Assembly: GCF_002155965.1 (NCBI RefSeq)
Contig: NZ_MUMH01000136.1
Location: forward strand, 1-58,791
Reading direction: 5' to 3'
DNA from: Allokutzneria sp. NRRL B-24872
GTDB lineage: Bacteria > Actinomycetota > Actinomycetes > Mycobacteriales > Pseudonocardiaceae
Length of the DNA: 58,791 bases
This document shows positions 28,030 through 52,705 of this stretch, in pieces (the stretch's first letter is position 1; each line of letters begins with the position of its first letter). A program made the translations under genes and the position numbers. Under the pieces are notes generated by a model, which saw only the letters and a program-made list of their open reading frames with translations, made no database searches and was not told where the DNA came from.

Positions 28030-28337
28030 TCCCCCTTGTCCGAGGCGAGGCAGGACACCACGAAGTCGACGAGCCGCCCGACGGTCAGCTCGATGATCTC
28101 GTCCAGCTCCAGGTCCGCGATGAACTCCGCGAAGTTGACCCGGCCGTCGTAGTGCTGCTCCAGCTGACCGGACAGCGCGACGAGGTCGATGCTCTCCAGC
28201 TCAAGGTCCTGGTGGAACTTGGTGTCCATCTCGATCACCGCGTCGTCGAGGCCGTACTCGCCGAGCACCTCGCGGACCATCTCGCTGATGTCCGCGAGCA
28301 CCACCTCGGGTGCCGACAGATCAGGGGTCGTCGTCAC
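28026..28337 (-). CDS. Stand-alone acyl carrier protein
   Basis: A 103-residue ACP, GTG start. The 4'-phosphopantetheine site is the Ser in DLELESIDLVALS, in the usual position at the start of helix II, preceded by TKFHQDL. Both ends overlap their neighbours by 4 bp (GTGA with the second synthase, ATGA with the hydrolase), so it is tightly coupled to them. The PPTase domain of the adjacent synthase probably activates it. It may carry a starter or hold the product for release. Confidence 0.88.
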   Translation of the reverse strand: MTTTPDLSAPEVVLADISEMVREVLGEYGLDDAVIEMDTKFHQDLELESIDLVALSGQLEQHYDGRVNFAEFIADLELDEIIELTVGRLVDFVVSCLASDKGE

Positions 28338-32752: not shown

Positions 32753-32764
32753 GCTTTTAGCCCA

Positions 32765-38700: not shown

Positions 38701-39886
38701 CCTGCGCGGGGCGACCGCCCGCGATGATCGCGCACGCGGGCTTGATCTCCTGGATGACCTCCAGCTGCCCGGCGCGCACGTCCTCCGGCGCGAACCCGAG
38801 CACGCCGACGCCCCACGGGCGCTCGCCCAGCAGGTCGCGGGTCTGCTCCAGCAGTGCGCGGGTCTGGCTCTTGCCCGCCAGCGCCAGCGCGAGGAACGGC
38901 ATCGCGCCACCCTCGGCGACGGCCTTGGCGAAGGCGGCCTGGTCGCTGACCCGGGTCATCGGGCCCTGCGCGATCGGCAGCTCCACGCCGAGCGAGGCGG
39001 CCAGCGGCGCGCCGGGGCGCAGCGCGTCGGCACCGGAGTGCGAGCGCAGCGACTCCAGCAGCTCCTCGCGCAGCCCGCGCACGCACGCCGCGGCCGAGCC
39101 GAAGCGGTCGGCGAACTGCTTGGCGAGGAAACCGTCCTGGCCGATCGGCAGCAGCTGCTCGCGCAGGTCCTTCGCGCCGAGCCGGGCCAGCACGTCGACC
39201 TCGGTCAGATCAGTGGTGGACGGGGCGCCGGGGCCGCGCCGCAGGAGCACGCGGTGCCCGCCGACGAGCACGGTCTCCGAGCCGTCCATGGTGCTCAGCG
39301 CGGCGGTGACCTCCTCGGCGAGGTCGGACTCGGCGAGCAGGGCCAGCTGGCTGTCCAGGACCACACCGGCGGCGCCGCCGACGACAGCCGCCGTCGCGGT
39401 GCGCGGGCCGATGCCGCCGTTGACCCACACCGGCACGTCGAACTCGGCGACGAGCTTCTGGAGCAGGACGAAGGAGCTCAGCTCACCGACCCGCCCACCG
39501 GCCTCGTGGCCGCGGGCGATCAGTCCGTGCGCGCCCGCCGCGACGGCCGCGCGGGCCTGCTCCGGCGAGGTGACCTCGACCAGGACGCGGGGACCGGCCT
39601 CGGCGACGCTCCAGGTGGAGCCCTCGGCGAGGACCACGGTGTCGACGCGGTCGGCGGGGAGGTCCTGCGGGCGCAGGGCGCAGCCGGGGGCCACGCGGAC
39701 GCCGAAGGTGCCTTGCGCCCAGCGGGCCGTCAGGTCGAGCGCGTGCCTCGCGTGCCTGTCACCGCGCCCGAGGTCCAGGACCCCGAGCGCACCCGCGCGG
39801 CAGAGCGCGGCGACAAGGCGGGCGTTCGGCTCACCGAAGGGGGTCACCCCGATGATCAGCTCGCGCCTCACCGTTTCCGCGGCCAT
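32765..39886 (-). CDS. PfaA/PfaD-like synthase: NMO-NMO/ER-KS-AT-ACP-ACP-KR
   Basis: This 2373-residue iterative synthase starts at ATG 39886 with GGAGG ahead of it. Two nitronate-monooxygenase/PfaD-like flavin domains occupy about 5-215 (VPVWVNGGIG) and 250-560 (GPMTRVSD, ECGGHVG), presumably the enoyl reductase. KS is at about 664-1085: Cys855 in DAACASS, EAHGTGT and GHTKCAAG. AT is at about 1215-1530: PGQGSQ and Ser1310 in GHSYGE. Two almost identical ACPs have Ser about 1713 and 1812 in LSIDSIKRTEI. The KR is at about 1900-2373 with GGARGIT, AAGVIEDK and DYSSAND. There is no DH; this is supplied by the next subunit. Domain order matches PUFA/secondary-lipid synthases with PfaD fused at the front. 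The product cannot be predicted beyond a long, at least partly reduced chain. Confidence 0.93.
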   Translation of the reverse strand: MAAETVRRELIIGVTPFGEPNARLVAALCRAGALGVLDLGRGDRHARHALDLTARWAQGTFGVRVAPGCALRPQDLPADRVDTVVLAEGSTWSVAEAGPRVLVEVTSPEQARAAVAAGAHGLIARGHEAGGRVGELSSFVLLQKLVAEFDVPVWVNGGIGPRTATAAVVGGAAGVVLDSQLALLAESDLAEEVTAALSTMDGSETVLVGGHRVLLRRGPGAPSTTDLTEVDVLARLGAKDLREQLLPIGQDGFLAKQFADRFGSAAACVRGLREELLESLRSHSGADALRPGAPLAASLGVELPIAQGPMTRVSDQAAFAKAVAEGGAMPFLALALAGKSQTRALLEQTRDLLGERPWGVGVLGFAPEDVRAGQLEVIQEIKPACAIIAGGRPAQANALEDNGIAALLHVPSPGLLKQFLDAGARRFIFEGSECGGHVGPRSSFPLWEAQISVLLEYLSTKDGQGIQVLFAGGVHDARSAAMVTAMAAPLTERGVAVGVLMGTAYLFTEEAVAAGAVQPAFQRQVIAAERTELLETAPGHATRCVTSPFAEEFLAIKEELRTSGVPDREAWEKLEQLNVGRLRIASKGVTRDGDKLVDVAEAGQLADGMFMAGQVAVLRSSVTTVADLHASVSTGAAEHLTARLDELAALSGREKAEVPAPPPVDVAIVGMACMFPGAADLPTYWANVVGGRDAVTEVPGSRWDHETYYSPEATGRSAGEKTPSKWGGFLPEIPFDPLSYGIPPASLAAIEPVQLLALEAAQRSLVDAGYATGRAFDRSRVGVVFGAEAGSDLSNASSLRAVLPGYIGELPAALDEQLPKLTEDSFPGMLANVISGRIANRLDLGGANYTVDAACASSLAALDVACKELVSGAADMMLCGGADLHNGINDYLLFSSVHALSPTGQCRTFDGSADGIALGEGVACVALKRLEDAERDGDRVYGVIKGVGAASDGKSLGLTAPRPEGQRNALERAYANARISPAEVGLVEAHGTGTVVGDRTELGTLTKMFAEHGAQPGSCTVGSVKSQIGHTKCAAGLAGLIKAALALHTGIKPPTLHVSEPNAAWQPDSSPFTFTSAALPWAEEPAERVAGVSAFGFGGTNFHVVLRGYDGGPAPRHVGDEWPAELFTFRGADLKTAGKHVEQTLELLRSNDSSGRPWRLRDIARTVARRSDARSEAVQIAVVATDLDELAQLLRSALAGETPRGVHLASVSPEVGGKVAFLFPGQGSQKPGMLADLFVAFPEVHHLLHEGRKWASTIFPPTAFDEQSAKDQDARLRDTRVAQPALGIAGLAVHELLSRLDVRPDMVAGHSYGELIALAAAGSLDSATLLRLSEARADSILGATGDDPGAMAAVKGGIERVTEVLREAGLADEVVAANHNSPEQLVISGPTAAIEAAVVALKAAKLGPKKLNVACAFHSPLVSGATETFGAVLADADVRAPELPVYANRTAAVYTEDVRAELAAQVGAPVRFVEQIEAMYADGARIFVEAGPGKVLSNLVKAILGDRPHLTVGCEGRPGHGLAGLLTAAATLAVSGVGVRTGWLFAGRDAKDLTNAKPPKRAGWTIDGHVVRTATGDFLPNGLAPARRVEITTMTTPGGSPQPGTNRDAMVNQFLQASREMVQAQRDVLLTYLGSAPEVQYSIPAVAAPLAPVQQHYAAPAPAPAVVEAAPVPAPSTVDVLGTVLEIISERTGYPLDMIEPDLDLEADLSIDSIKRTEIAGELASRIGAADTQLADEQLEELAKARTAQAISDWLSSKVGTTAPAPVVAAAPVQSTVDILGTVLEIISERTGYPLDMIEPDLDLEADLSIDSIKRTEIAGELASRIGAADTQLADEQLEELAKARTAQAIADWLGGHTGSAAPATAAAAAKVEEPMNPGIAPKRLVMAPTALTAISLDGAGKALGGKKFLLFGTGAVGAEVAALLSGLGATVSTSDTPRPLANTDGDVDGVLHLDGWDEADEPVLPETFPSFKSALTSGLSWLVSVSPTGGGTSVPELTHGRAAGLRGFFRTVQREYPDTVARLIEVDHTAEAAVVAKLVLAELLSTEDAPVVLATPDSRHGLVMTELPLTLGSTGAGPAGDGAAEAQAIGLDRDSVVLLIGGARGITAQFAATVASASGCRIELVGRTAAATEDEDPKTAAATDKTALRKALIELGHRSPAEIEKLSKKILAQREVSATVEQLRGLGSQVRYHSLDVRDHDALRQLVKEIHTEHGRIDGVVYAAGVIEDKLLAEKDVESFHRVFTTKVGGARALLGALEELPTGPGFVTLFGSIAAVLGNRGQSDYSSANDALEAIGAGWASRTGNRAVTVHWGPWAPSAQHGGMVTVELQQEYARRGISLIDPEEGTMSLLRELAFGAPDLRAVVYTASGW
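34325..34870. repeat. Near-identical tandem ACP-coding DNA repeats
   Basis: The two ACP modules are nearly identical at DNA level over about 230 bp each, with the same run of bases around the serine codons (34436-34520 and 34735-34818). Only the alanine/proline linkers differ. This indicates recent duplication or ongoing gene conversion, as in multi-ACP PUFA synthases. Confidence 0.9.
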
Positions 39887-39965
39887 TGAGCCTCCGTCGA
39901 TCAACACAACCTGGCAGAACGGCTGGACATGCGAGGTCCAACCCGAATGGCTGAATCGAAGCGGG

Positions 39966-39995
39966 AAGCTATCTGGGAAAAACGAATTGGTGCAA
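39966..39995 (-). promoter_or_regulatory. Candidate promoter of the lipid-synthase operon
   Basis: On the minus strand a -35-like TTGCAC (39995-39990) and a -10-like TAGCTT (39971-39966) are 18 bp apart. This would place the transcript start about 70 bp upstream of ATG 39886. The periodic box array begins 15 bp upstream of the -35. Confidence 0.5.
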
Positions 39996-40010
39996 CGGGC
40001 AGGACAGCAT

Positions 40011-40060
40011 CTTGAGGTCGTCTCAAGCTTGATTTGAGCGATCCTCAAGCGGGACTCAAG
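40011..40060. promoter_or_regulatory. Five regulator half-sites at 11-bp period
   Basis: CTTGAG (40011), CTCAAG (40022), TTTGAG (40033), CTCAAG (40044) and CTCAAG (40055) begin exactly 11 bp apart. All belong to one hexamer or its reverse complement, with one mismatch in the third. Being one helical turn apart, they face the same side of DNA directly upstream of the operon promoter. This is typical of cooperative activators such as SARP or OmpR-type proteins. Confidence 0.75.
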
Positions 40061-40644: not shown

Positions 40645-42060
40645 ATGGCGGCAGGACCGGCCGGACAGGTCGATGTCGTGGTGATCGGGATGGGTCCCGG
40701 CGGGGAGCACGTGGCGAGCGGGCTGGCCGAGGCCGGGCTGAGCGTCGTCGGTGTCGACCGGCGCCTCGTCGGCGGCGAGTGCCCGTACTACGGCTGCGTG
40801 CCGACGAAGATGATGGTCCGCGCGGCCGGCCTGCTGGCCGAGGCCGGGCGCGTACCCGAACTCGCAGGTGAGAGCACTGTGCGCGGTGACTGGTCGCTCG
40901 TGGCCAAACGCGTGCGCGAGCAGGCGACCGACGACTGGGACGACGAGGTGGCGGTCCGCCGCTTCACCGACACCGGTGGCACCTTCCTGCGCGGGGAGGC
41001 CACCCTGACCGGCGCGGACGCCGAAGACCCGCTTGCGGGGTCGAGCGTAGGCACAGTGCTGGTCACCGGCTCGGACGGCACCGAGCACCGGTTGTCCGCC
41101 CGCAAGGGCATCGTGATCAACACGGGCACCGAGCCCGCCGTCCCGCCGATCCCCGGCCTCGCGGACACGCCGTACTGGACCAACCGCGACGCGGTCCAGC
41201 TCACCGAGCTGCCCCGATCGCTGGCGATCCTCGGCGGCGGCGCCATCGGCGTGGAGTTCGCGCAGGTCTTCGCGCGCTTCGGTGTCGAGGTCACGGTGAT
41301 CGAGGCCCAGCCCAGGCTGCTCGCCCTTGAGGAGCCGGAGGCGGGCGAGCTGCTCGCGAAGGTCCTTGAGGCCGAGGGGCTGACCGTCCGCGTCGGCGCC
41401 AGGGCCACCGGGGTCTCGCACGACGGGACGACCTTCACCGTCGACCTGGGCGGCGGCACCGTGACGGCCGAGAAGCTGCTCGTCGCCACCGGCAGGCGCA
41501 CCGAGCTGGCCAAGCTCGGCGTCGGCGCGATCGGCGTCGACGAGAAGGCGCGGCTGCTGGAGGTCGACGAGCGGTTGCGTGTCACCGAGGGCGTCTGGGC
41601 GGTCGGTGACATCACCGGCAAGGGCGCCTTCACGCACACCTCGATGTACCAGGCGGACATCGTGATCGCCGACGTGCTCGGCCGCGACGGACCGCCGGCC
41701 GACTACCGCGCGATGCCCAGGGTGACCTTCACCGAGCCCGAGGTCGGCGCGGTCGGCCTGACCGAGGCGCAGGCCCGCGAGCGGGGCCTCTCCGTGCGCA
41801 CGGGCAGCACCGACCTGGCCTCCTCGTCACGGGGCTGGATTCACGCCGTGGGCAACGAGGGCCTGATCAAGCTCGTCGAGGACGCCGATCGCGGAGTCCT
41901 CGTCGGCGCCACCGCCGTGGGCCCCGCCGGTGGCGAGATCCTCGGCGCGCTCGCCGTCGCCGTGCACGGCGAGGTCCCGGTCTCCCGGCTGACCTCGATG
42001 ATCTACGCCTACCCGACCTTCCACCGCGCGATCTCCTCCGCGCTCGCCGACCTCTCCTGA
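40645..42060 (+). CDS. FAD-dependent disulfide-reductase-family oxidoreductase
   Basis: The 471-residue flavoprotein is related to mercuric reductase and dihydrolipoamide dehydrogenase. FAD binds at VVIGMGPGGEHVA, the redox pair is C-PYYG-C in GGECPYYGCVPTK, the NAD(P) site is ILGGGAIGVE, and the second FAD motif is GVWAVGDIT. The C-terminal HPTxxE active-site signature of true thiol reductases is replaced by YPTFHRA, so the substrate is probably not lipoamide or glutathione. It is divergent from the lipid operon and convergent to the RiPP-type genes; membership in either is unproven. Confidence 0.88.
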   Translation: MAAGPAGQVDVVVIGMGPGGEHVASGLAEAGLSVVGVDRRLVGGECPYYGCVPTKMMVRAAGLLAEAGRVPELAGESTVRGDWSLVAKRVREQATDDWDDEVAVRRFTDTGGTFLRGEATLTGADAEDPLAGSSVGTVLVTGSDGTEHRLSARKGIVINTGTEPAVPPIPGLADTPYWTNRDAVQLTELPRSLAILGGGAIGVEFAQVFARFGVEVTVIEAQPRLLALEEPEAGELLAKVLEAEGLTVRVGARATGVSHDGTTFTVDLGGGTVTAEKLLVATGRRTELAKLGVGAIGVDEKARLLEVDERLRVTEGVWAVGDITGKGAFTHTSMYQADIVIADVLGRDGPPADYRAMPRVTFTEPEVGAVGLTEAQARERGLSVRTGSTDLASSSRGWIHAVGNEGLIKLVEDADRGVLVGATAVGPAGGEILGALAVAVHGEVPVSRLTSMIYAYPTFHRAISSALADLS

Positions 42061-42079
42061 ACGGGACCAGGACACGGGC

Positions 42080-42111
42080 GCGGGGGCCCGGCGTTGTCGC
42101 CGAGCCCCCGC
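42080..42111. terminator. Bidirectional hairpin terminator
   Basis: GCGGGGGC (42080-42087) pairs with GCCCCCGC (42104-42111), extended inward by GGCG/CGCC around a TTGT loop. It lies between the convergent flavoprotein gene and the small peptide gene. Confidence 0.8.
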
Positions 42112-42187
42112 GCACCCCCCGAGGCCGTCACCGCTTCCGGCTCCCCGTGGGCGAATCCCCTCCGCCCGCCCCCGAGCCGGGTGCTGA

Positions 42188-42418
42188 TCAGGCCTTGGCG
42201 GTCTCGTCGGCCTCCGGGGCCGGCGCGCCGTCGCCGAACTCGGCGACGAACTCCGCGTCGATGTCCTCCGGCTCCGGGTCGCCGATGAACAGCGTTCCGG
42301 AGGTGTAGGGGCGGACGACGCCGGGATCGCCGGGGCCTCCGGGGTCGGTCGTGGTCTCGGGCTCGGGCTCGGTCTCCGGCAGTTCCTGCAGGCGGTCGAT
42401 GTCGGTGTTCGGTTCCAT
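42188..42418 (-). CDS. Cys-free candidate RiPP precursor peptide
   Basis: A 76-residue, very acidic peptide with a good ribosome site (AAGGAG) and ATG 42418, 35 bp after the lanthipeptide-type synthetase gene in the same direction. Residues about 7-13 (IDRLQEL) resemble the LxLQ-type helix that class III synthetases recognise in leaders. A Pro/Glu/Gly-rich middle and a segment PYTSGTLFIGDPEPED follow. It contains no cysteine, so it cannot form lanthionine or labionin; only Ser/Thr phosphorylation or dehydration would be possible (TSGT is the obvious cluster). It might instead be an unrelated acidic protein, but position and leader motif favour a substrate. Confidence 0.65.
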   Translation of the reverse strand: MEPNTDIDRLQELPETEPEPETTTDPGGPGDPGVVRPYTSGTLFIGDPEPEDIDAEFVAEFGDGAPAPEADETAKA

Positions 42419-42453
42419 GGGGTTCTCCTTCCGCGAGGTTCGTGACAGGTGCC

Positions 42454-45144
42454 TCAGACGAGGCTGGCGTGCGCCTCCGCCGTGAGCGGGCGTCCGCCCG
42501 GTGGCAGCCACGGGGCGCTGACCCCGTGGCGCAGGCGCACCAGGAAGCCGAGGCTGCCCGCCGTCCCTGTGCCGTGTGAGAGGTCGTTGCGCCGCCAGCC
42601 CACACCCGGCACGAGCCAGCGGCCGTCCCGCCGGTACGCGTGTCCACCGATGATGCGGCTGAGGCGCTCGGCCCACAATCGATATCGCTGCTCACCGGTC
42701 GCGGTGTGCAGGTCCAGCAGGAACTCGCCGGAGCCCGCGAGCCCGTGCGCGGCTGACGGGTCCGACACCCAGCGGCGCTGCCACACCGACAGGGCCGCCC
42801 GCTCCGCCAGTTCCAGCCAGTCGCGCTCGCCGGTCGCGCGCCACAACCGGACCAGGAACGAGCCGACCCCGGCCGTCCCCGCGCTCCAGCTGTCGCTCGC
42901 CTGGCCGGTCGTCCCGGAGTGATCCGGCCAGCGCACACCGGAGCCGTCCTGCACCGCGGCACCCGCCATGGTGCGCCCGGCGATCCCGGCCAGCTCCAGG
43001 AGGTCACCGCGGCCCAGCGTCGCCGCCGCGGAGAGCAGGAAGGTCGCGATGCCCGCCGTGCCGTGCGCGAGCCCGTAGGCGGCACCGCCCCCGGACCGCG
43101 CGGCGTAGGACTTCGAGGGCTCCCAGGTCAGGCCGCGCTCGTCCAGCCGGGCCTCGTGCGCCAGGTGTTCGGCGATCTGCTCGATCCGGCCGAGCAGCCC
43201 GGGATCGCCCGAGGCCACCGTGAGCGCGCACATCGCGAGCCCCGCCCCGGCGGTTCCGCTGGCGAGGCCGGGGTTCGGCCAGCGCGTGGGCATCCGGTGC
43301 GCCCACCCCAGCGCCTCGTCGGACAGTCCGGAGTCGCCGAGCACCTGACCGGCGTGGTGCAGCACCAGGAGCGTCCCGGCCCGCCCGTGCAGCAGGCCCG
43401 GCGTGGGCACCGCCTCCGCGCGCATCTTGGCGAGCAGCCACGTCGCGCCTGTGCGGAGCGCGTCGTGGTGGCGCGGGTCCCCGGTCGCCGCCGCGGCGGC
43501 GAGCACCGCGGCGAGCCCGCCCGCCGCCCCCGGCCACGCGGAGCACGCGTCCTGGCGCGGGTCGACGACCGGCCAGAGCGTCTTCGCCGTGGGCCGCATC
43601 GCGGCGACGAGGTGGTCGACGCCGTCTGCGATCAAGGTGTCGGTGTTCGGGGCGCCGTCCTCGTGCGGGGCGCTCGGCGTGACGATCCCGCGCACCGACA
43701 CCGCGTCCAGGTACTGCCCGGCCCGCTCCAGCGTCCAGCGCCGGTCCGGGTCCGCGTCCTGGAGCCCGTCGACCAGCGGCCGGAGCCTGCCGAGCACGGA
43801 GTCCTCCGCGCAGACCAGGTCCAGCCACCGCTCGCGCTGGAGCACCCGCTCCGCCATCTGTCCACTGTGGACAATCTCGGCCCCGGTCGCCAGGAACACC
43901 AGCACCGCCCCGAGCGCGTAGCGGTCGGCCGCCGCGGTCCTCGGCGATCCGGCCAGCTGCTCGTAGGGGGCGTAGCCGGGCGTGCCCGACGCGGACAGCG
44001 CCGCGCCCTCCTCGGCGGCCAGCTCCACGTCGATCAGGGTCAGCCCGCCGTCCGGGCGGACCATGACGTTGCCGGGGGTCAGGTCCCCGAGCACCAGCCC
44101 GTCCGCGTGCACCCTGGCCAGCAGCGCCATCAGGTCCCTGGTCACCGCGAGCAGCTTCGGCCAGCCGAGCCCCGGCGTCCCCGTCGCGGCGAGCCAGCGG
44201 CGCAGCGACCGCCCCTCGACGAGCTCCTGGGCCAGGAAGTCGTCGCCGTCCTGGGAGAACTCCGCGACGAAGCGCGGGGTCAGGCCGAGCGGTTCGAACC
44301 GGCGCAGCATCGCGGCCTCGTGGCGCTGGATGTCCCGGACGTCGCCGCCGGCGCCGTCGTCGCCCACGTGCGCCCGCGCCTGCTTGACCACGACGGCCGC
44401 ACCGTTCGTGGTGTCGATCGCGCGGTAGACACCGCCCTTGTTCGCGTGCCGGATCGCCTCGGCGGCGAGGAAGCGGCCACCGAGCAGGACGCCGCCGGAG
44501 TCCGTGCGGCGCGCGCTCTTCCTCGGCTCGGGGAAGGGCCAGCTCGCCCACGCCGGAGCGCTGAACCAGGGGTCGCGCCGGTCCTCGACGGTCCCGCCGT
44601 CCGGGGTCAGCAGCATGTCCCGGTAGTCACCGTCCGGGCTGAGCACCGGGTTCGCCAGGAAGCAGCCGTAGCGGCAGTGCACCAGGCTGCCCGTGCGGTA
44701 CGGCCGGTCGGAGAGGATGCGCGGCCCGTTCAGGCCCGCCGTCGCGCGGTGCAGCCGGTGCGCGAGCACGCGCAGCTGAGCGTCGTCGGCCGGGTAGACG
44801 GTGATGAACTTGCCCGCACCGCCGCGCGTGCAGCGGGGGCCGTTGAGCTCGCGCAGCACGGAGCGGGACGCGGCGAACTTGAAGGCGGTCCGGAATTCCG
44901 CGAGCACGCGCACCGCCCGCTCCAGCACGCGCTCGGCGTGCGCCGTCGTCGCGGAGAGGTGCAGCTTCCAGCCCTGTCTGCGGACGCTCGCCTCGGGAGG
45001 GGTGATGGTGCACCACTGCTCGCCCAGGTGGACGACCCGGTCCTGCTCGCCGAGCTCGGCGAGCACCCGCTCGGTCAGGGTGACGAAGGAGGGGCGCGCG
45101 GCGCCGCGGGTGGGCTGATCGGTGGAATCGATGATCATGGTCAC
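42454..45144 (-). CDS. Class III-type lanthipeptide synthetase (LanKC-like)
   Basis: The 896-residue protein has three domains. A phospho-Ser/Thr lyase spans about 1-210 (GKFITVYPAD, LVHCRYGCF). A Ser/Thr-kinase-like domain spans about 225-490, with Lys in VVVKQARAH, catalytic HADGLVLGDLTPGNVMV and LIDVE replacing DFG. A LanC-like cyclase spans about 510-896, with GLLHGRAGTLL, LAHGTAGIA, SAGTAGVGSF and DLSHGTGTAGSL repeats. The Cys/Cys/His zinc ligands of LanC and class IV LanL are absent (SHG where CHG is expected), which places it with class III. The start may be GTG 45144 or ATG 45138. The promoter shares an 18-bp box with the FAD oxidase downstream of the LAL gene. Confidence 0.88.
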   Translation of the reverse strand: MTMIIDSTDQPTRGAARPSFVTLTERVLAELGEQDRVVHLGEQWCTITPPEASVRRQGWKLHLSATTAHAERVLERAVRVLAEFRTAFKFAASRSVLRELNGPRCTRGGAGKFITVYPADDAQLRVLAHRLHRATAGLNGPRILSDRPYRTGSLVHCRYGCFLANPVLSPDGDYRDMLLTPDGGTVEDRRDPWFSAPAWASWPFPEPRKSARRTDSGGVLLGGRFLAAEAIRHANKGGVYRAIDTTNGAAVVVKQARAHVGDDGAGGDVRDIQRHEAAMLRRFEPLGLTPRFVAEFSQDGDDFLAQELVEGRSLRRWLAATGTPGLGWPKLLAVTRDLMALLARVHADGLVLGDLTPGNVMVRPDGGLTLIDVELAAEEGAALSASGTPGYAPYEQLAGSPRTAAADRYALGAVLVFLATGAEIVHSGQMAERVLQRERWLDLVCAEDSVLGRLRPLVDGLQDADPDRRWTLERAGQYLDAVSVRGIVTPSAPHEDGAPNTDTLIADGVDHLVAAMRPTAKTLWPVVDPRQDACSAWPGAAGGLAAVLAAAAATGDPRHHDALRTGATWLLAKMRAEAVPTPGLLHGRAGTLLVLHHAGQVLGDSGLSDEALGWAHRMPTRWPNPGLASGTAGAGLAMCALTVASGDPGLLGRIEQIAEHLAHEARLDERGLTWEPSKSYAARSGGGAAYGLAHGTAGIATFLLSAAATLGRGDLLELAGIAGRTMAGAAVQDGSGVRWPDHSGTTGQASDSWSAGTAGVGSFLVRLWRATGERDWLELAERAALSVWQRRWVSDPSAAHGLAGSGEFLLDLHTATGEQRYRLWAERLSRIIGGHAYRRDGRWLVPGVGWRRNDLSHGTGTAGSLGFLVRLRHGVSAPWLPPGGRPLTAEAHASLV

Positions 45145-45165
45145 CTGTTCGGCCCCCTTCGAGTG

Positions 45166-45227
45166 ACTGTCCGGCTGCGGAAGGCAATCTGCCGCTCACC
45201 CAGGTGGCGGAGCATCGGGGAAACCCC
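45166..45227 (-). promoter_or_regulatory. Shared regulon promoter, synthetase copy
   Basis: Read toward the synthetase gene (minus strand): GGGGTTTCCCCGATGCTC (45227-45210), 14 nt, GCGGCAG (45195-45189), 16 nt, GGACAGT (45172-45166). The box ends 65 nt from GTG 45144. The same elements in the same order occur before the FAD oxidase. GGGGTTTCCCC is palindromic, a fit for a LuxR-type dimer. Confidence 0.8.
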
Positions 45228-45567
45228 TCCATTCGTTACCCCGGTGCCGATCACGTGCCGCGATCAGGTATTCACCTAAAGCGATAGTCGCTGTTCAATG
45301 CTCCGTTCGTGTGGTCGGTGCCGTCCCTGTGACGTGGGCACGCGCGCTCCCGGTTCCCGGCGCGGCGGCATGCGCGAGCCCGTTTCCCGACGCGGGTGGC
45401 CTGGGCGTACTTTGGGGCGGCCGCGACCCACTCCGATCCGGCTCCGGCTCCCGCGCCACGAGTAAGGTCGTCCGGCGGAACGGCCGGTTGTCCGGGTTGG
45501 TGAGGAGTGGCCCTGGTCGGCATCATTGCTGAGACGCAGGCGGGCTTCGGGTCTGCGCTCGCCGAGC

Positions 45568-45581
45568 GTGCCCCGGGGCAC
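45568..45581. promoter_or_regulatory. Perfect 14-bp palindrome before LAL start
   Basis: GTGCCCCGGGGCAC ends 8 bp upstream of the GTG start of the LAL regulator. It could be an autoregulatory operator or, in RNA, a hairpin limiting ribosome access. Confidence 0.6.
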
Positions 45582-45589
45582 CCCGAGGG

Positions 45590-48514
45590 GTGGATGCCGT
45601 AATGCAGAAGAGGGTCGGCGGCGCGGTGCGCCCGCTGGTCGGACGCGAGGCCGAGCAGGACGCGCTCACCCGCGCGATCAGCCGCCTCACCGAAGGCCAG
45701 GGCGGGGGCCTGTTCCTCTCCGGTGACCCCGGCATCGGCAAGAGCAGGCTGCTGACCGACCTCACCTGGCGCGCGTCGATGCGCGGCCTGACCGTGTTCA
45801 GCGGCCGGTCCGCCGAGTTCGAGCGGGACCTGCCCTTCGGTGTCTTCGTGGACGCCCTCGACGATTACCTCGCCGATCTCCAGCCGGGCGAGCTGGAGGC
45901 GCTGGGCCGGGCGCACGTGGCGCAGCTCGCCGCGGTGTTCCCCTCGCTCGCCGATCACGCCACCGACCTGAGCCAGGAGTCCTCATCGCCGTCGGTGAGG
46001 TTCCGGATCTACCGGGCGATGCGCGAGCTCTTCGACATCCTGGCCAAGGACGGCAGCGTCGTCCTCGCCCTCGACGACCTGCACTGGGCCGACCGCGCGT
46101 CCATCGAGCTGATGGACCACCTGCTGCGGCACCCGCCGAGGGGCCGCGTGCTGGTCGCTGCCGCCTACCGGCCCCGCCAGCTCGCCCCGCAGCTGTCGAA
46201 CGCGCTGCTGCTGGCCAACACGCAGTGGTACTTCGAGGTCGTCGACGTCGCTCCGCTCACCCTCACCGAGACCGCCGAGCTGCTGGAGATCGGCGCCGAC
46301 GACCCGCGCCTGACGGAGCTGTTCGAGGCGAGCCGGGGCAACCCGTTCTACGCCGAGGCGCTGTCGGAGGTCGCCACCGAGGCGCGCTACCTGCCCGGGG
46401 TGTTCACCGAGGGCAGCGCGCCGCCCGCCGTGCTCGCCGCGCTGCGCTCCGAGCTCTACCGGCTGCCGGACATCGTCCGCAGGGCCGCGGGCGCCGCTTC
46501 GGTCCTCGGCGACCCGTTCACCCCCGACCTGGTCGCCGAGGTGGCCGAGCTGGACGTGCCGACGGCCGTCGCGGCGCTGGACGAACTGGTGCGCCAGGAC
46601 GTCGTGCGGGTCGCCGGCGGCGGCGCCCAGTTCGGGTTCCGGCACCCGCTCGTGCGCAGCGTCGCCTACCAGGACACCGAGTCGGTCTGGCGGTTCGCGG
46701 CGCACCGCAGGGCGGCCGACGCGCTGCGGGCCCGGCGCTCTCCCGTGCTGCTCTACGCGCACCACCTGGAGCGCTCCGCGCAGCCGGGCGACCACGAGGC
46801 GGCGGAGGTGCTCGCCGCCGCGGCGGCTGGCGTGCTCTCCACCGCGCCGGACACCTCGGCCAGCTGGTTGCAGACGGCACTGCGGCTGCTGCCGATCGGC
46901 GAGTCCCACATCGCGCAGCGCATCCAGTTGCTCAGCAGCCTGGCCACCGCCTACTCCGCCATCGGGCAGAGCAGCCGCAGCCGAGACCTCATGCACGAGG
47001 TGCTCGACCTGCTGCCGAAGGACAGCGACCAGCGGCTGGACATCGTCCTCCGCCTGTCCAAGGTGGAGCGCGGGCTGGGCAGCGCGAGCGAGGCGCGGGC
47101 GCTGGTGCTGCGGGAGCTGGAGAACTCCGAGGAGAGCACCAACCGTTCCGGGCGCGCGGGAGCGCTGCTGGAGATCGCGATCATCAACCTGGCCGAGGGC
47201 GACGTGCCGGAGGCGTGCCAGTGGGCGGAGGACGCGCTCGCGCTCTCCAACGGCCCGCGCCTGGTCGACCGGCTCACCGCGGCGGTGGCGGCGGCGATGA
47301 TCATGGCGACGGCGCCGGGCAGCGACGACTCGCCCCGGCTCATCGAGCGGGTGCTCGACGCGATCCCGGCCGTGGACGCGGCCTCCGACGACGAGGTCAC
47401 CCGGCACTTCGGCCTGGTCGTCACGGCGATCACCACGGTGATGTGGGTGGAGCGGATCGACGACTCGGTCCGGCAGTTCACCAGGGCGACGAACCTGGCG
47501 CGGCAGAGCACCCACCGCGACTCGATCATGGCCATCATGATCGCCTCCGGCGAGGCCTACATGTGGCAGGGATCGCTGGAGGAGTGCGAGGCCGCCGCCG
47601 AGGACATGCTCGAGGCCGCCATGCTCACCGACAACCAGGAGCAGCGGCTGATCGCGTGGAGCCACCTCTGCTCCATCGCGATGTGGCGCGGCGACGTCGA
47701 GGAGGCGCTGCGCTTCGGCAGGCTGGCGCTCGGCGGCGACGACCCGGCCACGAGCGGCCGCAGCCGCTCCGCCGGCTACTACACCGCGGCCGCGCTGCTG
47801 CTCAAGGGCGAACCGGCGGCGGCGCGGCGGCGGATGATGGCCGCGATCGGCGACGAGGGCATGGCCTCGGTGGCGGTGCTGATGCGCCCGCCGGTGCTGG
47901 AGATCCTGGTGCGCATCGAGCTCGCGCTCGGCGACGTCGCCGCGGCCGAGGAGTGGGCGCGGCGGATCGACCCGCAGGTCGGCGAGATCCTGCCCGGCCG
48001 GTGGGGGATGCGGCACCTCGCCCACGCCCAGGTACTGCTCGCGCGGGACCGCTTCGACGAGGCCGCCGAGCTGGCGCGGGAGGGCGCGCTGCTGTGCGAC
48101 AGCGTCGGCATGCGGCTCTACGAGGGGCGGTGCCGGCTGGTGGCCGGGATCGCGCTCGGCGAGCTGGGCAGGCACGACGAGGCGCGGGTGGAGTTCGGCG
48201 CGGCCAAGGACCTCTTCGCGGCGCGCGGGGCGAAGCGGCTGCACGAGGACGTGATCAGCGCGCAGCGGCAGCTCGGCGCGAAGATGCCGAGGCGGCGCGG
48301 CGGGGGCGAGGGGTTGCTGGCGCTGACGGCGCGGGAGCGCGAGGTCGCCGAGCTGATCAGCCAGGGCAGGACGAACAAGCAGGTCGCCGAGCACCTGTTC
48401 GTCAGCCCGAAGACGGTCGAGGCGCACCTGTCGCGCATCTTCAACAAGCTCAACGTGAGCAGCCGCTCCGGGCTGACCGCGCTGGTCTACGCCGCCCGCG
48501 AGAACAAGGGCTGA
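45590..48514 (+). CDS. LAL-type LuxR-family regulator
   Basis: A 974-residue large ATP-binding LuxR regulator. The N-terminal AAA/STAND ATPase has Walker A SGDPGIGKSRLL (about 44-55) and Walker B VLALDDLHWADR (about 158-169). A long helical TPR-like sensor middle follows, then a C-terminal LuxR HTH (about 905-965: LTAREREVAELISQGRTNKQ, then VAEHLFVSPKTVEAHLSRIF). Such proteins are pathway-specific activators in actinomycete gene clusters. It lies between two genes whose promoters share an 18-bp palindromic box, so it is the obvious candidate to bind there. GTG 45590 is used; ATG 45602 is an in-frame alternative. Confidence 0.93.
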   Translation: MDAVMQKRVGGAVRPLVGREAEQDALTRAISRLTEGQGGGLFLSGDPGIGKSRLLTDLTWRASMRGLTVFSGRSAEFERDLPFGVFVDALDDYLADLQPGELEALGRAHVAQLAAVFPSLADHATDLSQESSSPSVRFRIYRAMRELFDILAKDGSVVLALDDLHWADRASIELMDHLLRHPPRGRVLVAAAYRPRQLAPQLSNALLLANTQWYFEVVDVAPLTLTETAELLEIGADDPRLTELFEASRGNPFYAEALSEVATEARYLPGVFTEGSAPPAVLAALRSELYRLPDIVRRAAGAASVLGDPFTPDLVAEVAELDVPTAVAALDELVRQDVVRVAGGGAQFGFRHPLVRSVAYQDTESVWRFAAHRRAADALRARRSPVLLYAHHLERSAQPGDHEAAEVLAAAAAGVLSTAPDTSASWLQTALRLLPIGESHIAQRIQLLSSLATAYSAIGQSSRSRDLMHEVLDLLPKDSDQRLDIVLRLSKVERGLGSASEARALVLRELENSEESTNRSGRAGALLEIAIINLAEGDVPEACQWAEDALALSNGPRLVDRLTAAVAAAMIMATAPGSDDSPRLIERVLDAIPAVDAASDDEVTRHFGLVVTAITTVMWVERIDDSVRQFTRATNLARQSTHRDSIMAIMIASGEAYMWQGSLEECEAAAEDMLEAAMLTDNQEQRLIAWSHLCSIAMWRGDVEEALRFGRLALGGDDPATSGRSRSAGYYTAAALLLKGEPAAARRRMMAAIGDEGMASVAVLMRPPVLEILVRIELALGDVAAAEEWARRIDPQVGEILPGRWGMRHLAHAQVLLARDRFDEAAELAREGALLCDSVGMRLYEGRCRLVAGIALGELGRHDEARVEFGAAKDLFAARGAKRLHEDVISAQRQLGAKMPRRRGGGEGLLALTAREREVAELISQGRTNKQVAEHLFVSPKTVEAHLSRIFNKLNVSSRSGLTALVYAARENKG

Positions 48515-48539
48515 GAGCCCACCCCCTACAACGAGTGTG

Positions 48540-48599
48540 GGGGTTTCCCCGATGCTCGCCGACCGCCCCCGGCGGCAGTCTTGCTCCTGTGCGGACAGT
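48540..48599 (+). promoter_or_regulatory. Shared regulon promoter, FAD-oxidase copy
   Basis: GGGGTTTCCCCGATGCTC (48540-48557), 14 nt, GCGGCAG (48572-48578), 14 nt, GGACAGT (48593-48599). The box ends 64 nt before ATG 48622, matching the synthetase promoter (65 nt). It begins only 26 bp after the LAL stop, so the oxidase has its own promoter. Confidence 0.8.
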
Positions 48600-48621
48600 G
48601 CCTGGATGCGGGAGGTCGAGG

Positions 48622-49995
48622 ATGCGGATCGAACTCGGCCTGCTGCGGATGTGCTTGACGGGGACGGTGCTGACGCCCGGTGAGCCCGGGTACGAGGCGG
48701 AGTGCAGGTCCTGGAACCTCGCGATGCACCAGCGGCCCGCCTTCGCGGTGACCGCGCTGACCGAGCAGGACGTGGCGGCGGCCGTGCGCTTCGCCTACGT
48801 GCGGGATCTTCCGGTGGGGGTGATGTGCACGGGTCACGGTCTGCCGCGCCCGTGCGATGACGGGGTGCTCGTCAACACCGGGGGGATGAGGGGGGTGCGG
48901 GTCGATCCCGTCACGGAGACCGCGTGGGTGCAGGCGGGGGCGCGGTGGCAGGACGTGATCGACGAGGCGCAGCGGTACGGCCTTGCGCCGTTGTCCGGCT
49001 TCGCCACGCACGACGGTGCCGTCGGCAGCACGCTCAGCGGGGGGATGGGCTGGCTGACGCGGCGGTACGGGGTGAGTGCCGCGAGCGTCGTGGGAGCGCG
49101 CGTGGTCCTCGCCGACGGGGAGCTCGTGGAGACCGGTGAGTCGCGGCATCCCGAGCTGGTGTGGGCGCTGCGCGGGGGCGGCGGGAACTTCGGTGTCGTG
49201 ACGGAGCTGCGGTTGCGGCTCTACCCGGTGACCGAGGTCTTCGGCGGCGGCGTCTACTACCCCATCGAGGCCGCCGGGCAGGTGATGGAGGTCTACCGCG
49301 AGTGGGTGCGCGAGCTGCCTCCTGAGATCAGCTCGTCGGTCTGCCTGACGCGCCGCGGTTCCGAACCGGGGGGTCCGGAACCGCTGCGCGGACGGTGGGT
49401 CATCGGGTTGCGGGCGTGTCACAGCGGGGACCAGCACGAAGCGGAACGGCTGCTCAAGCCGCTGCGCTCGCTGGAGGGGGTCCTGCTGGACACGTTCGCC
49501 CCGATGCCCTACGAGCGGATCTCCGAGATCGCCATGCCACGCACCGATCCGAATCCGCACGTCAGCTTCGGCATGCTGCTGCCCGAGCTGACCGAGGCGG
49601 CGTGCGCGGCCCTGCTGATGGTGGCCGGGCCGGGGCGCCGGGCGCCCTACGACCACCTGGAGCTGCGGCACGTCGGCGGGGGGAACCGGCCGGAGGAGGC
49701 GGACGCGGGGCCCGGCCTGTGGGGGGCGGAGTTCGTGCTGCACTCCTCGACGCGCACCCCGGTCGCCGACGAGGTCGCCGCGGCGCAGCGCTTCTACAGC
49801 AGGCTCGCCAGGGGGCTGGCGCCCTTCGCCAGCGAGCGGACGGCTCTGAACTTCCTCGGTCCGGCCAACACCGAGCCGGACCGGGTGCGGCGGTCCTACC
49901 GCGACGACCACTACCAGCGGTTGCAACGGATAAAGGGTGTCTACGACCCGCACAACGTGTTCCGGTTCAACCACAACATTCCGCCCGCCGCCTAG
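48622..49995 (+). CDS. Berberine-bridge-type FAD-linked oxidase
   Basis: The 457-residue protein belongs to the FAD_binding_4/BBE family. The FAD-binding half has a GHG histidine (VMCTGHGLP) in the position of the covalent 8-alpha-histidyl link, TLSGGMGWLTRRYG, and ALRGGGGNFGVVTELRLRLYP. The C-terminal BBE element ends YDPHNVFRFNHNIPP. Such enzymes oxidise alcohols, amines or C-C positions of small natural products using O2. It has no signal peptide. The promoter match with the lanthipeptide-type synthetase makes a tailoring role on that product likely. ATG 48622 has GGAGG 6 nt upstream. Confidence 0.9.
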   Translation: MRIELGLLRMCLTGTVLTPGEPGYEAECRSWNLAMHQRPAFAVTALTEQDVAAAVRFAYVRDLPVGVMCTGHGLPRPCDDGVLVNTGGMRGVRVDPVTETAWVQAGARWQDVIDEAQRYGLAPLSGFATHDGAVGSTLSGGMGWLTRRYGVSAASVVGARVVLADGELVETGESRHPELVWALRGGGGNFGVVTELRLRLYPVTEVFGGGVYYPIEAAGQVMEVYREWVRELPPEISSSVCLTRRGSEPGGPEPLRGRWVIGLRACHSGDQHEAERLLKPLRSLEGVLLDTFAPMPYERISEIAMPRTDPNPHVSFGMLLPELTEAACAALLMVAGPGRRAPYDHLELRHVGGGNRPEEADAGPGLWGAEFVLHSSTRTPVADEVAAAQRFYSRLARGLAPFASERTALNFLGPANTEPDRVRRSYRDDHYQRLQRIKGVYDPHNVFRFNHNIPPAA

Positions 49996-50029
49996 GACCT
50001 GCGAGGTCCCAAGGGGGGACGGCGGGAGG

Positions 50030-50064
50030 ACGGCCCCGGTGGGCAGCGAGTCCGCCGGGGCCGT
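50030..50064. terminator. Hairpin terminator after FAD oxidase
   Basis: ACGGCCCCGG (50030-50039) pairs with CCGGGGCCGT (50055-50064). A smaller hairpin, GGACCT-GCG-AGGTCC, directly follows the stop codon at 49996-50010. Confidence 0.75.
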
Positions 50065-50224
50065 TGTGCGTCCGGCGGCCTTGCCCCGGCCCCGTGGTCC
50101 AGGCCACTCTCGGGCATACGCATGTGACCCACGTCGTTCTGGACGGGTGAGGACACCCTGGCTACGTTGAGTTCTTGCCAATCACCGTACGGAGTCGAAC
50201 CGGCCTGATGTGAGGAGCCGCACC

Positions 50225-50758
50225 ATGGTCCGCAGGATCGTCGAGCTGGTCGACGCGCGGGGGACGACGCTGGGCGAGTGCCCGGTCGACGAGGCCCACC
50301 TGCCACCCGGCAGGCTGCACCGAGCGTTCTCGGTCATGCTCTTCGACGCCGCCGACCGGGTGCTGCTGCAGCGCAGGGCGCTGTCGAAGTCCCGCTTCCC
50401 CGGCCTGTGGGCCAACACCTGCTGCAGCCACCCCGCCGCGGGCGAGGACGTCGCCGAGTCCGCGCGCGAGCGGCTGGACGAGGAGATGGGCCTGCACGTC
50501 GGCGCGCTGCGCGAACTCGGCACCTTCGTGTACCAGGCGCTGGACGGTCAGGGCGCGGCCGAGCACGAGTTCGACCACGTGCTCGTCGGCGAGCTGGACG
50601 CCTCGGTCCGGGTGCTCCCCGACCGCGAGGAGATCGAGGAGCTGGCCTGGGTGCCCTACGTCGAACTGGTCGACGACGTGGCCGCGCGGCCCGAGCGCTA
50701 CGCCCCGTGGGTCCCCGGCGTGATCGAGCTGATCGACCGGGCCCGCGCGACCGCCTGA
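50225..50758 (+). CDS. idi: Isopentenyl-diphosphate delta-isomerase (type I)
   Basis: This 177-residue Nudix-fold protein has the type I IDI active-site residues: Cys in WANTCCSHP, Glu in EHEFDHVL, and a Nudix-like box AAGEDVAESARERLDEEMGL. It interconverts IPP and DMAPP in the cytoplasm for terpenoid and quinone synthesis. It is a single gene with a terminator before it and no terpene genes nearby. Length and motifs are complete. Confidence 0.95.
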   Translation: MVRRIVELVDARGTTLGECPVDEAHLPPGRLHRAFSVMLFDAADRVLLQRRALSKSRFPGLWANTCCSHPAAGEDVAESARERLDEEMGLHVGALRELGTFVYQALDGQGAAEHEFDHVLVGELDASVRVLPDREEIEELAWVPYVELVDDVAARPERYAPWVPGVIELIDRARATA

Positions 50759-51115
50759 GCGACCGCCACCCGCACGTCGTCGCCGGGGAAGCCTTGGCGC
50801 GGAGCCGGAATTCGTGTGTCCACTGTGGACCGGATGCTTCGAGTTGATCGAGGTGTCCGGTCTTTTCCTTGTGTCGGTTCACGTTTCTGAACCTCGGTGG
50901 TCGTCCTCGGCATTGTCACCGAACGTTCTGCTTCGATTCCGAAGTGTTGACGGTGCGCGTCCGGGCGTGGCAGTCTCGATTAACGGTTAGGTAAGTTTCC
51001 TAACTAATGGTTTCCTAACTAGAGCTGTCCTGACTAGCAGATCCCCCTTCTCGCCGATGCCGGTTCGTCCGCCGCCCGTCCCGGTCTTCGTCGATTGGCT
51101 CGCCGAGGAGAGACT
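50759..51115. other. 357-bp intergenic region
   Basis: Spacer between idi and the secreted phosphoesterase. It contains one copy of the GTCCAC-T-GTGGAC palindrome (50818-50830) and, closer to the phosphoesterase, an inverted repeat and three 15-bp direct repeats. No additional gene is seen. Confidence 0.7.
50986..51036. promoter_or_regulatory. Operator: GTTAGG/CCTAAC palindrome with 15-bp direct repeats
   Basis: GTTAGG-TAAGTTT-CCTAAC (50986-51004) overlaps the first of three direct repeats spaced 15 bp apart: GTTTCCTAACTA (50995), GTTTCCTAACTA (51010) and the diverged CTGTCCTGACTA (51025). The array ends 79 bp before the phosphoesterase start. It is probably a binding array for the regulator of this secreted enzyme. 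Confidence 0.7.
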
Positions 51116-52705
51116 GTGAACGCACGATCCCGATGGGGCAGGCGCGTCCTCGCGCCGCTGGCCGCCGTCGCCCTGCTCGCACAACCGCTCGTGGCTTCCG
51201 GGAACGAGGCCCTGCTGGCCGAGAACCTGTTGTCGCACAACAAACCCGTCACCGTGTCCTCGGTGGAGGACGAGACCACCGGTGGCGCGCTCGCCGTGGA
51301 CGGTGACATCGCCACCCGCTGGGCCAGCGCCGAGGGCCTCGATCCGCAGTGGATCGCCGTCGACCTCGGCGGGCCGGCCACGGTCAGCCGGGTGAAGCTG
51401 GTGTGGGAGGCCGCCCACGCCAGTGACTACCAGATCCAGGTGTCCCCGGACGGAAAGGCTTGGCAGGACGCGAAGAAGGTCACCGGGGGAGACGGTGGCA
51501 CCGACGAGATCACCGGGCTGGCCGCCTCAGCCCGGTACGTCCGGGTCCTGGGCACCAAGCGCGCCACCGTCTACGGCTACTCGCTGTTCGAGCTGGAGGT
51601 CCACGGCACGCGCACGGGCGGCGGGGACGTGGAGCCGCCGTCGGCCCCGGCCGGGGTGCGCTCCCCGTCGTCCACTTCGGACAGCATCGACCTCGCGTGG
51701 GACCCCGCGCGGGACAACGTCGGCGTGACCGGTTACGAGATCCTGCGCAACGGCAACGTGATCGGCACCTCCGCGACGACGTCCTTCACCGACACGGGAC
51801 TGGTCTCGGCGACCGCGTTCACCTACACGGTCCGCGCGCGCGACGCGGCGGGCAACGTCTCCGCGCAGAGCACGGCGGTCCAGGCGGGCACCAAGCCGGG
51901 CGGCTCGCCGAACGGAACGGTGATCGTCGTCTCCGGCGACATCGCGAGCCCCGACCTGCCGGACAACCACCGCAACACCGCGAAACTGGTGGAGGGCATC
52001 AAGCCCCAGCACGTGTTGACGGTCGGTGACAACCAGTACCACGACGGCACGATCGCGGAGTACCGCGCGCACTACGACAAGTCCTGGGGCAAGTTCAAGG
52101 CGATCACCAAGCCGACCCCGGGCAACCACGAGTGGAGGGACAACCTCAACGGTTACAAGCAGTACTTCGGATCGATCGCGACACCCCAGGGAAAGCCCTA
52201 CTACAGCTATGACATCGGTGACTTCCACTTCGTAGCACTGGACACCGACCCGATCGTCGACGGCGCCAGCTCCAAGGCCGAGCAGCTGGCCTGGCTGAAG
52301 CGGGACCTCGCCGCGAACACCAAGTCCTGCGTGGTCGGCTACTGGCACCACCCGCGCTTCAACTCGGGCAAGTACGGCGACGACAAGCTCATGGCGCCGG
52401 TGTGGGACGAGTTCGTCAAGGCCCGCGCCGACCTCGTGTTCAGCGGCCACGACCACCACTACGAGCGGCTGAAGCCGTTGAACTCGCAGGGAAAGGTCGA
52501 TGAGGCCAACGGCGTGCGCTCGGCGGTCGTCGGCATCGGCGGGGACAACCTCTACACCCAGATCAAGAAGCGGGAGGGCGTCGAGGCGGCCTTCGCCAAG
52601 CACGGCGTGATGAAGCTGGTGCTCTCGGGCAAGACCTACTCCTGGGAGATCGTCGGCGTCGGCGGGACCCTGCTGGACAAGGCCGGCCCCTACACCTGCC
52701 GCTAG
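51116..52705 (+). CDS. Secreted metallophosphoesterase with F5/8C and Fn3 domains
   Basis: The 529-residue protein has a signal peptide (about 1-30, RRVLAPLAAVALLAQPLVA). A discoidin/F5-8 type C carbohydrate-binding domain (about 40-165) and a fibronectin III domain (about 175-265) follow. Last is a purple-acid-phosphatase-like metallophosphoesterase (about 270-529) with VSGDI, TVGDNQY, PGNHEW, YWHHPRF and SGHDHHYER as metal ligands. It should release phosphate from extracellular substrates while bound to polysaccharide. The GTG start gives a complete signal peptide. Confidence 0.92.
   Translation: MNARSRWGRRVLAPLAAVALLAQPLVASGNEALLAENLLSHNKPVTVSSVEDETTGGALAVDGDIATRWASAEGLDPQWIAVDLGGPATVSRVKLVWEAAHASDYQIQVSPDGKAWQDAKKVTGGDGGTDEITGLAASARYVRVLGTKRATVYGYSLFELEVHGTRTGGGDVEPPSAPAGVRSPSSTSDSIDLAWDPARDNVGVTGYEILRNGNVIGTSATTSFTDTGLVSATAFTYTVRARDAAGNVSAQSTAVQAGTKPGGSPNGTVIVVSGDIASPDLPDNHRNTAKLVEGIKPQHVLTVGDNQYHDGTIAEYRAHYDKSWGKFKAITKPTPGNHEWRDNLNGYKQYFGSIATPQGKPYYSYDIGDFHFVALDTDPIVDGASSKAEQLAWLKRDLAANTKSCVVGYWHHPRFNSGKYGDDKLMAPVWDEFVKARADLVFSGHDHHYERLKPLNSQGKVDEANGVRSAVVGIGGDNLYTQIKKREGVEAAFAKHGVMKLVLSGKTYSWEIVGVGGTLLDKAGPYTCR

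Follow-up and report, generated by a model that had tools for sequence, protein, structure and literature searches.

A conserved 18-bp box on both sides of a LAL gene in Allokutzneria, a probable LuxR-type operator before genes for a LanL synthetase and an FAD-dependent oxidase

What controls the two promoters that point away from a LAL regulatory gene in Allokutzneria sp. NRRL B-24872? Both are located in a stretch of 58,791 nt (contig NZ_MUMH01000136.1, hereafter the window) and both contain the same 18-bp sequence, GGGGTTTCCCCGATGCTC. On one side of the LAL gene this box precedes lanL, which encodes a lanthipeptide synthetase, and on the other a gene for a BBE-type FAD-dependent oxidase (Table 1). 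An earlier note on this DNA had proposed that the boxes define a regulon. We consider this idea well supported, and hold with moderate confidence that a LuxR-type activator uses the box as its operator, the most likely one being the LAL whose gene lies between the two promoters.

Two identical boxes and their conservation

Both exact copies were located where the earlier note had placed them, on the strands it gave and with the LAL gene in between. The genome assembly scanned (8.19 Mb in 475 contigs, 95% complete) has only these 2 exact copies, none with 1 mismatch, 1 with 2 and 10 with 3; as a control, the reversed 18-mer pattern gave 1 match. With two exact sites, both beside the LAL gene, the box is not the common dispersed repeat that was named at the outset as grounds for giving up the regulon. 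Within the window, three matches with up to 3 mismatches were found where 0.11 was expected (100 shuffles), the third having 3 mismatches and lying at 39840, inside the polyketide synthase (PKS) gene 32765-40048. No convincing further regulon member was identified in the genome, as the match with 2 mismatches (L003) is present in the source genome alone among three Allokutzneria genomes, and four of the five 3-mismatch loci examined (L004-L008) fall within a predicted gene. In GTDB contigs, a scan from which records of the source genome or very near ones may be omitted, the exact 18-mer occurs in 4 records. The single record with two copies is a contig of Allokutzneria sp. A3M-2-11 16, and the other three, with one copy each, are from a Bradyrhizobium, an Acidobacteria metagenome-assembled genome and an Arthrobacter.

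Conservation at orthologous loci, the check that the earlier note had asked for, was evaluated in three Allokutzneria genomes, the source and two relatives. The cluster is present in both relatives, with the LAL and LanL each 89-90% identical. The coding DNA of the three species is ~88-89% identical, yet both boxes are exact in all three. The alignment of the oxidase promoters resembles a footprint, in that the box is kept, the next 13-14 nt vary in sequence and length, and GGCGGCAGTCTTG is then kept. The lanL promoter does not discriminate, because almost everything from the box to the start codon is unchanged.

The distances reported previously, 64-65 nt to the start codons and a 14-nt step to GCGGCAG, were measured as such. 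The box ends 65 nt from the LanL GTG (45144) and 64 nt from the oxidase ATG (48622), and GCGGCAG starts 14 nt past the box in both promoters (45195-45189; 48572-48578). GGACAGT follows a further 15 nt on at the lanL side (45173-45167) and 14 nt on at the oxidase side (48593-48599). This last sequence is present after both boxes in the window, as the note had said, but was rejected as a shared element as it is altered in both relatives, to GGACATC before LanL and GGACTGT before the oxidase. What is supported is a two-promoter regulon around the LAL gene, based on uniqueness, conservation within the genus and an equal distance to the putative -10 hexamers.

Two further sequences near the lanL box and the LAL gene are conserved. 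A block between the box and the gene, CACCTAAAGCGAT-N-GTCGCTGTTC (45255-45315), is possibly a promoter or a second operator. A strongly conserved stretch before the LAL gene (45507-45602, + strand) could encode ~30 amino acids and ends with TAATG over the LAL start; the GTG start of this frame is not conserved in the two relatives.

Table 1. Locations of the features discussed, in window positions unless a locus number precedes the position
Feature	Position	Strand	Remarks
Putative precursor peptide	42188..42418	-	76 aa, cysteine-free; leader MEPNTDIDRLQELPETEPEP; downstream of lanL, same strand
lanL	42454..45144	-	RamC_N lyase, kinase and LanC-like domains (Pfam); both zinc-ligand cysteines replaced
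Putative -10 hexamer CAGATT	45186..45191	-	18 nt past the 18-mer; unchanged in both relatives
18-bp box before lanL	45210..45227	-	Palindrome GGGGTTTCCCC + GATGCTC; exact in both relatives
LAL regulator gene	45602..48514 (ORF open from GTG 45590)	+	AAA_16 ATPase, TPR-like region, GerE/LuxR helix-turn-helix; proposed activator
18-bp box before FAD oxidase	48540..48557	+	Exact in both relatives; following 13-14 nt diverge
Putative -10 hexamer CAGTCT	48576..48581	+	18 nt past the 18-mer, 17 in relatives; hexamer unchanged there
BBE-type FAD-dependent oxidase	48622..49995	+	Pfam FAD_binding_4 + BBE
cydA-like boxes	L167:6907, L168:6937, L169:7133, L181:7168, L182:7108		GGGACATCCCCGATGTT

Distance from the box to a putative -10 element

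The shared spacing of GCGGCAG is real, but the block is better read as containing a putative -10 hexamer, CAG(A/T)(T/C)T. With these hexamers as the reference, transcripts are predicted to start near 45179 (-) and 48588 (+), and the GGGG-N3-CCCC palindrome of the box would be centred near -43 (-42 in the oxidase promoter of the relatives) with its GATGCT end over the -35 position. The lux box, centred at -42.5, is a parallel to this position of the palindrome.

Similar sequences were seen beside the LAL gene in several loci of other genera, and a generalised box, GGGRNWTYCCSGATGYT, was written from three of these (L062, L064 and L082) together with the window. In 249 genomes of the family, it occurs exactly at 33 places in 26 genomes and the reversed pattern occurs once. 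Six of the 33 places are the Allokutzneria pairs and four are the seed loci; of the others examined more closely, nine are within predicted coding sequence or at a predicted start codon and could be coincidental. A hexamer of the form [TC]ANNNT starts 18, 19 or 20 nt past the 17-mer in 23 of 26 boxes read as intergenic (9, 12 and 2 cases, respectively), with 0 or 1 case at every other offset from 0 to 56. Counted by distinct promoters, the hexamer is at 18-20 nt in 12 of 15, against a background of 0.6% per offset, and the nominal P of 6.5e-19 is a guide only, as both the sites counted and the form of the hexamer were chosen with the data in view. Nine exact boxes in predicted coding sequence or on a start codon (L127, L129, L130, L164, L165, L166, L170, L171, L172) were excluded from this count, as was one duplicate view of the same places (G153 type); two cydA copies, L174 and two boxes in L183 were kept despite a simple gene caller placing them inside open frames, and boxes in L067, L070, L083 and L086, not being exact, were not included.

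The spacing rule holds in both window promoters and in promoters far from any LuxR gene. In 246 genomes of the class, the composite of box and hexamer identified 4 further places outside the source genome, 3 of them in one genus, and the reversed composite none; a LuxR-type helix-turn-helix (HTH) was not found in the 3-kb loci of these four. An arrangement with a -35 at GCGGCA and a -10 at GACAGT was considered and dropped, because GACAGT is not conserved and the hexamer at 18-20 nt recurs elsewhere.

The regulator that probably binds the box

The LAL, with ~970 amino acids, an N-terminal AAA ATPase (Pfam AAA_16, 9.7e-27) and a C-terminal LuxR-type HTH (GerE, 3.8e-19), has the domains and the length (~900-1000 amino acids) expected of its family, and the two best box sites in the genome flank its gene, both pointing away from it. 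It is the likely binder of the box. A dimer of its C-terminal HTH would bind the palindrome ~42-43 bp upstream of the transcript start and, with the GATGCT end over the -35, recruit RNA polymerase to the -10 hexamer (class II activation). Such activation would turn on the operon of lanL and the precursor in one direction and the FAD oxidase in the other, as parts of one pathway for a ribosomally synthesized and post-translationally modified peptide (RiPP).

The generalised box is enriched beside LAL genes. In 35 LAL loci scanned for 1.5 kb on each side, with dinucleotide shuffles as the control, 12 boxes were found with up to 2 mismatches compared with a mean of 1.28 (maximum 5 in 60 shuffles). 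Without the three seed loci, the remaining 32 have 3 boxes at up to 1 mismatch and 6 at up to 2, versus 0.075 and 1.2, and neither number was reached in 200 shuffles; by comparison, 1 and 3 matches were found in control sequence of 357 kb from LanL neighbourhoods, and 0 and 1 in 98 kb that encode LALs. These six boxes are in five loci (L067, L070, L083, L086, L142), two of which are not fully independent of the seeds: L086 shares its genome with L064, and L067 shares its genus. In L142, which is from another family and was not a seed, the LAL gene is flanked by two boxes, one per side, that face outward like those in the window. A box with up to 1 mismatch is present in 4 of 9 loci whose LAL has the helix KTVE[AV]H[LV]SR and in 1 of 26 others (P 0.010), with L137, L139 and L143, in which the HTH was not found, counted among those without the helix motif.

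In L082 (4699-4990), two outward boxes with 2 and 4 mismatches to the 18-mer are located downstream of the LAL gene, and the right box precedes a short frame, MTIEIRRVEDIKVTSIHVIDTCGA, that is perhaps a small RiPP precursor.

Several results weigh against assigning the box to the LAL. At up to 3 mismatches, the 35 LAL loci have 26 boxes against a shuffled mean of 13.9 and a maximum of 26 (60 shuffles), which is not decisive, and at up to 2 mismatches a box is present in just five of the 32 non-seed loci, two of these being weak matches beside LALs that have a different type of helix. Without the seeds, the association with helix type falls to 1 of 6 versus 1 of 26 (P 0.34). Outside the genus, the hexamer accompanies just three of the six boxes next to a LAL gene (L131, L132, two in L133, two in L183). 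No LAL with more than 41% identity was found outside the genus (249 family genomes, E 1e-120, best candidates per genome), which leaves three genomes as the basis for conservation among true orthologues; a search with the HTH alone in 246 class genomes, at a cut-off that was too strict, returned just the query. Scanning 45100-48700 with the sigma-70 consensus revealed no promoter, which would agree with dependence on an activator. In the regions examined around several boxes a LuxR-type HTH is missing: those upstream of a cydA-like gene (five genomes), those upstream of one gene in another genus (four genomes), and those of L174 and L175. Such an HTH is 153 bp from the box in L173, 271 bp in L179, 751 bp in L171 and 3.7 kb in L128, and is within 1.5 kb of 76 of 887 control positions (8.6%). 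Because similar boxes are at promoters with no LuxR-type gene nearby, operators of this type may also serve other regulators of the LuxR family. The cydA-like case, in five genomes of one genus, consists of GGGACATCCCCGATGTT followed after 18 nt by a TANNNT hexamer; the product of the gene that follows is presumably a cytochrome bd subunit I.

These observations also bear on a different regulator. The PAS-LuxR operator of PimM, FscRI and PteF, CTVGGGAWWTCCCBAG, positioned in the -35 region according to the accessible part of PMC9774167 and given also in that of PMC5143413, is likewise a GGG...CCC palindrome. The core of the window box, GGGGTTTCCC, differs from GGGAWWTCCC by one base (A to G) and some boxes of other genera, for example GGGAATTCCC, fit it. 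The box might then be bound mainly by a PAS-LuxR or NarL-type protein encoded elsewhere in the genome, with the LAL acting elsewhere or above it in a cascade, as portions of PMC9774167 describe for LAL and PAS-LuxR regulators of polyenes; a first look at the genome gave 129-136 LuxR-type candidates for the LAL query. We regard this as unlikely, though as a serious alternative, given that both genome sites flank this LAL and occur nowhere else, and that outward-facing boxes likewise flank other LALs. The CTV and BAG ends of the PAS-LuxR operator are not matched, the window having TGG or GTG before the core, CGA after it and a one-sided GATGCTC end instead; no PAS domain was detected in the LAL by a Pfam scan. 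The PAS-LuxR operator is reported to cover the -35, and the putative -10 hexamers would place the window box there.

Cluster-situated LALs are mostly activators, which counts against the LAL, or another LuxR-type protein, repressing both promoters by blocking the -35. The overlap of the box with the predicted -35 would suit such repression and SCO6993 is described as a repressing LAL in the available text of PMC9628970, but the sigma-70 scan found no TTGACA-type -35 hexamer, which fits an activator-dependent promoter, and we think repression improbable. Still less probable is that the box acts in RNA, with GGAGGGG serving to bind ribosomes and a small leader peptide starting at the box ATG. 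Before LanL, GGAGGGG is 8 nt upstream of this ATG, the frame ends in a GTGA that overlaps the lanL start, and the whole leader is strongly conserved. Before the oxidase, however, gaps of 1 nt shift the frame between species and leave the box and the -10 block unchanged, the LanL frame shows non-silent amino-acid changes, and there is no Rfam match in 42000-51200; the chance of such a leader seems to us very small. That the two boxes are identical through recent duplication or by chance, with no regulatory role, is hardly credible. Nothing beyond the short length of the match speaks for it, and both copies have stayed the same across the three diverged species, their flanks are unrelated apart from the -10 block, and the shuffle and reversed-pattern counts argue for the opposite.

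If the LAL is the activator, its site differs from those known for relatives. MalT and SCO6993 have the same architecture, an N-terminal ATPase and a C-terminal LuxR HTH, with other binding sequences: the MalT box is GGA[TG]GA, and the sites of SCO6993, a footprinted LAL, in the accessible sections of PMC9628970 are different from the window box, the authors stating there that a consensus could not be predicted. BldM/WhiI sites are operators of similar length for LuxR-superfamily HTHs, and the one given in the part consulted of PMC4125116, TCACcCgnncGgGTGA, has no resemblance to the box. The available portion of the MilR paper (PMC5015266) gives no binding site. Judged by title and the start of the abstract, which is weak evidence of absence, none of the open-access papers listed for LAL operators, an Allokutzneria lanthipeptide or class IV features describes the box or the cluster, and the literature matches listed for the exact letters of the box were unrelated.

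Genes that the box would control

LanL belongs to class IV, with 858.4 bits to NCBIfam NF038150 (cut-off 650) and 457.4 bits, below the cut-off of 575, to the class III model. It has the same order of lyase, kinase and LanC-like domains as the venezuelin type, and the leader of the putative precursor shares the LQxLPE motif, but the window enzyme is without both zinc cysteines and the putative precursor has no cysteine, so that thioether rings within it would be impossible. LanL enzymes retain the zinc site according to the accessible text of PMC2843593. Of the Cys, Cys-His ligands, both Cys are replaced in all three Allokutzneria LanLs and kept in 23 of 25 other aligned LanLs; the kinase lysine and aspartates are retained in the alignment. 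No precursor with the leader motif was found in the flanks of the two other LanLs without zinc cysteines (L034, L035).

The precursor frame is open in all three genomes of the genus, with 73-76 codons, none of them for cysteine, and gaps whose lengths are multiples of three, and scores 16.8 bits against NF038157 (ALQxL family), below the cut-off of 19. A leader-motif scan of 20 other LanL neighbourhoods found six (L043, L044, L046, L047, L055, L061) with a small cysteine-bearing frame with a like leader just downstream. Because the zinc cysteines are replaced and the precursor is cysteine-free, two losses that fit together, the pathway probably dehydrates the putative precursor peptide without forming thioether rings. 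LanL is encoded at 28 places in 27 of the 249 family genomes, 25 of them outside the genus cluster; among 20 of these 25 examined for an orthologous cluster, LAL-like pieces were found in one (L058) and an oxidase above 70 bits in none.

The oxidase scores 348.5 bits against the BagK/FevA1 model, far below the cut-off of 800. Its presumed part in the peptide pathway and its presumed action on the same peptide are suggested by the shared box. Downstream of the oxidase, 50210-50758 (+) encodes a type 1 isopentenyl-diphosphate isomerase that is conserved in both relatives, with no box before it. At 28334-40048 (-), two large PKS proteins have KS, AT, ACP, KR, DH, phosphopantetheinyl transferase and nitronate-monooxygenase-like domains, and we take the pair to be similar to a polyunsaturated fatty acid type synthase.

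The most unusual aspect of this probable LuxR-type operator is what it would control. A broader proposal is more tentative: that a GGG-N4/5-CCC palindrome carrying GATGYT on one side and lying at a constant distance from the -10 may be a general operator of LuxR-type activators, some LALs among them, in several actinobacterial genera, here controlling a LanL-derived pathway without thioether rings. If this is true, the product would be a dehydrated or oxidised peptide without rings. Natural-product clusters are commonly switched by LAL regulators, whose DNA sites are poorly defined, and an operator with a stated promoter geometry would allow targets to be predicted from sequence. In Allokutzneria, the box would bring together, under common regulation in one pathway, an unusual LanL without the zinc site, a precursor free of cysteine and an oxidase.

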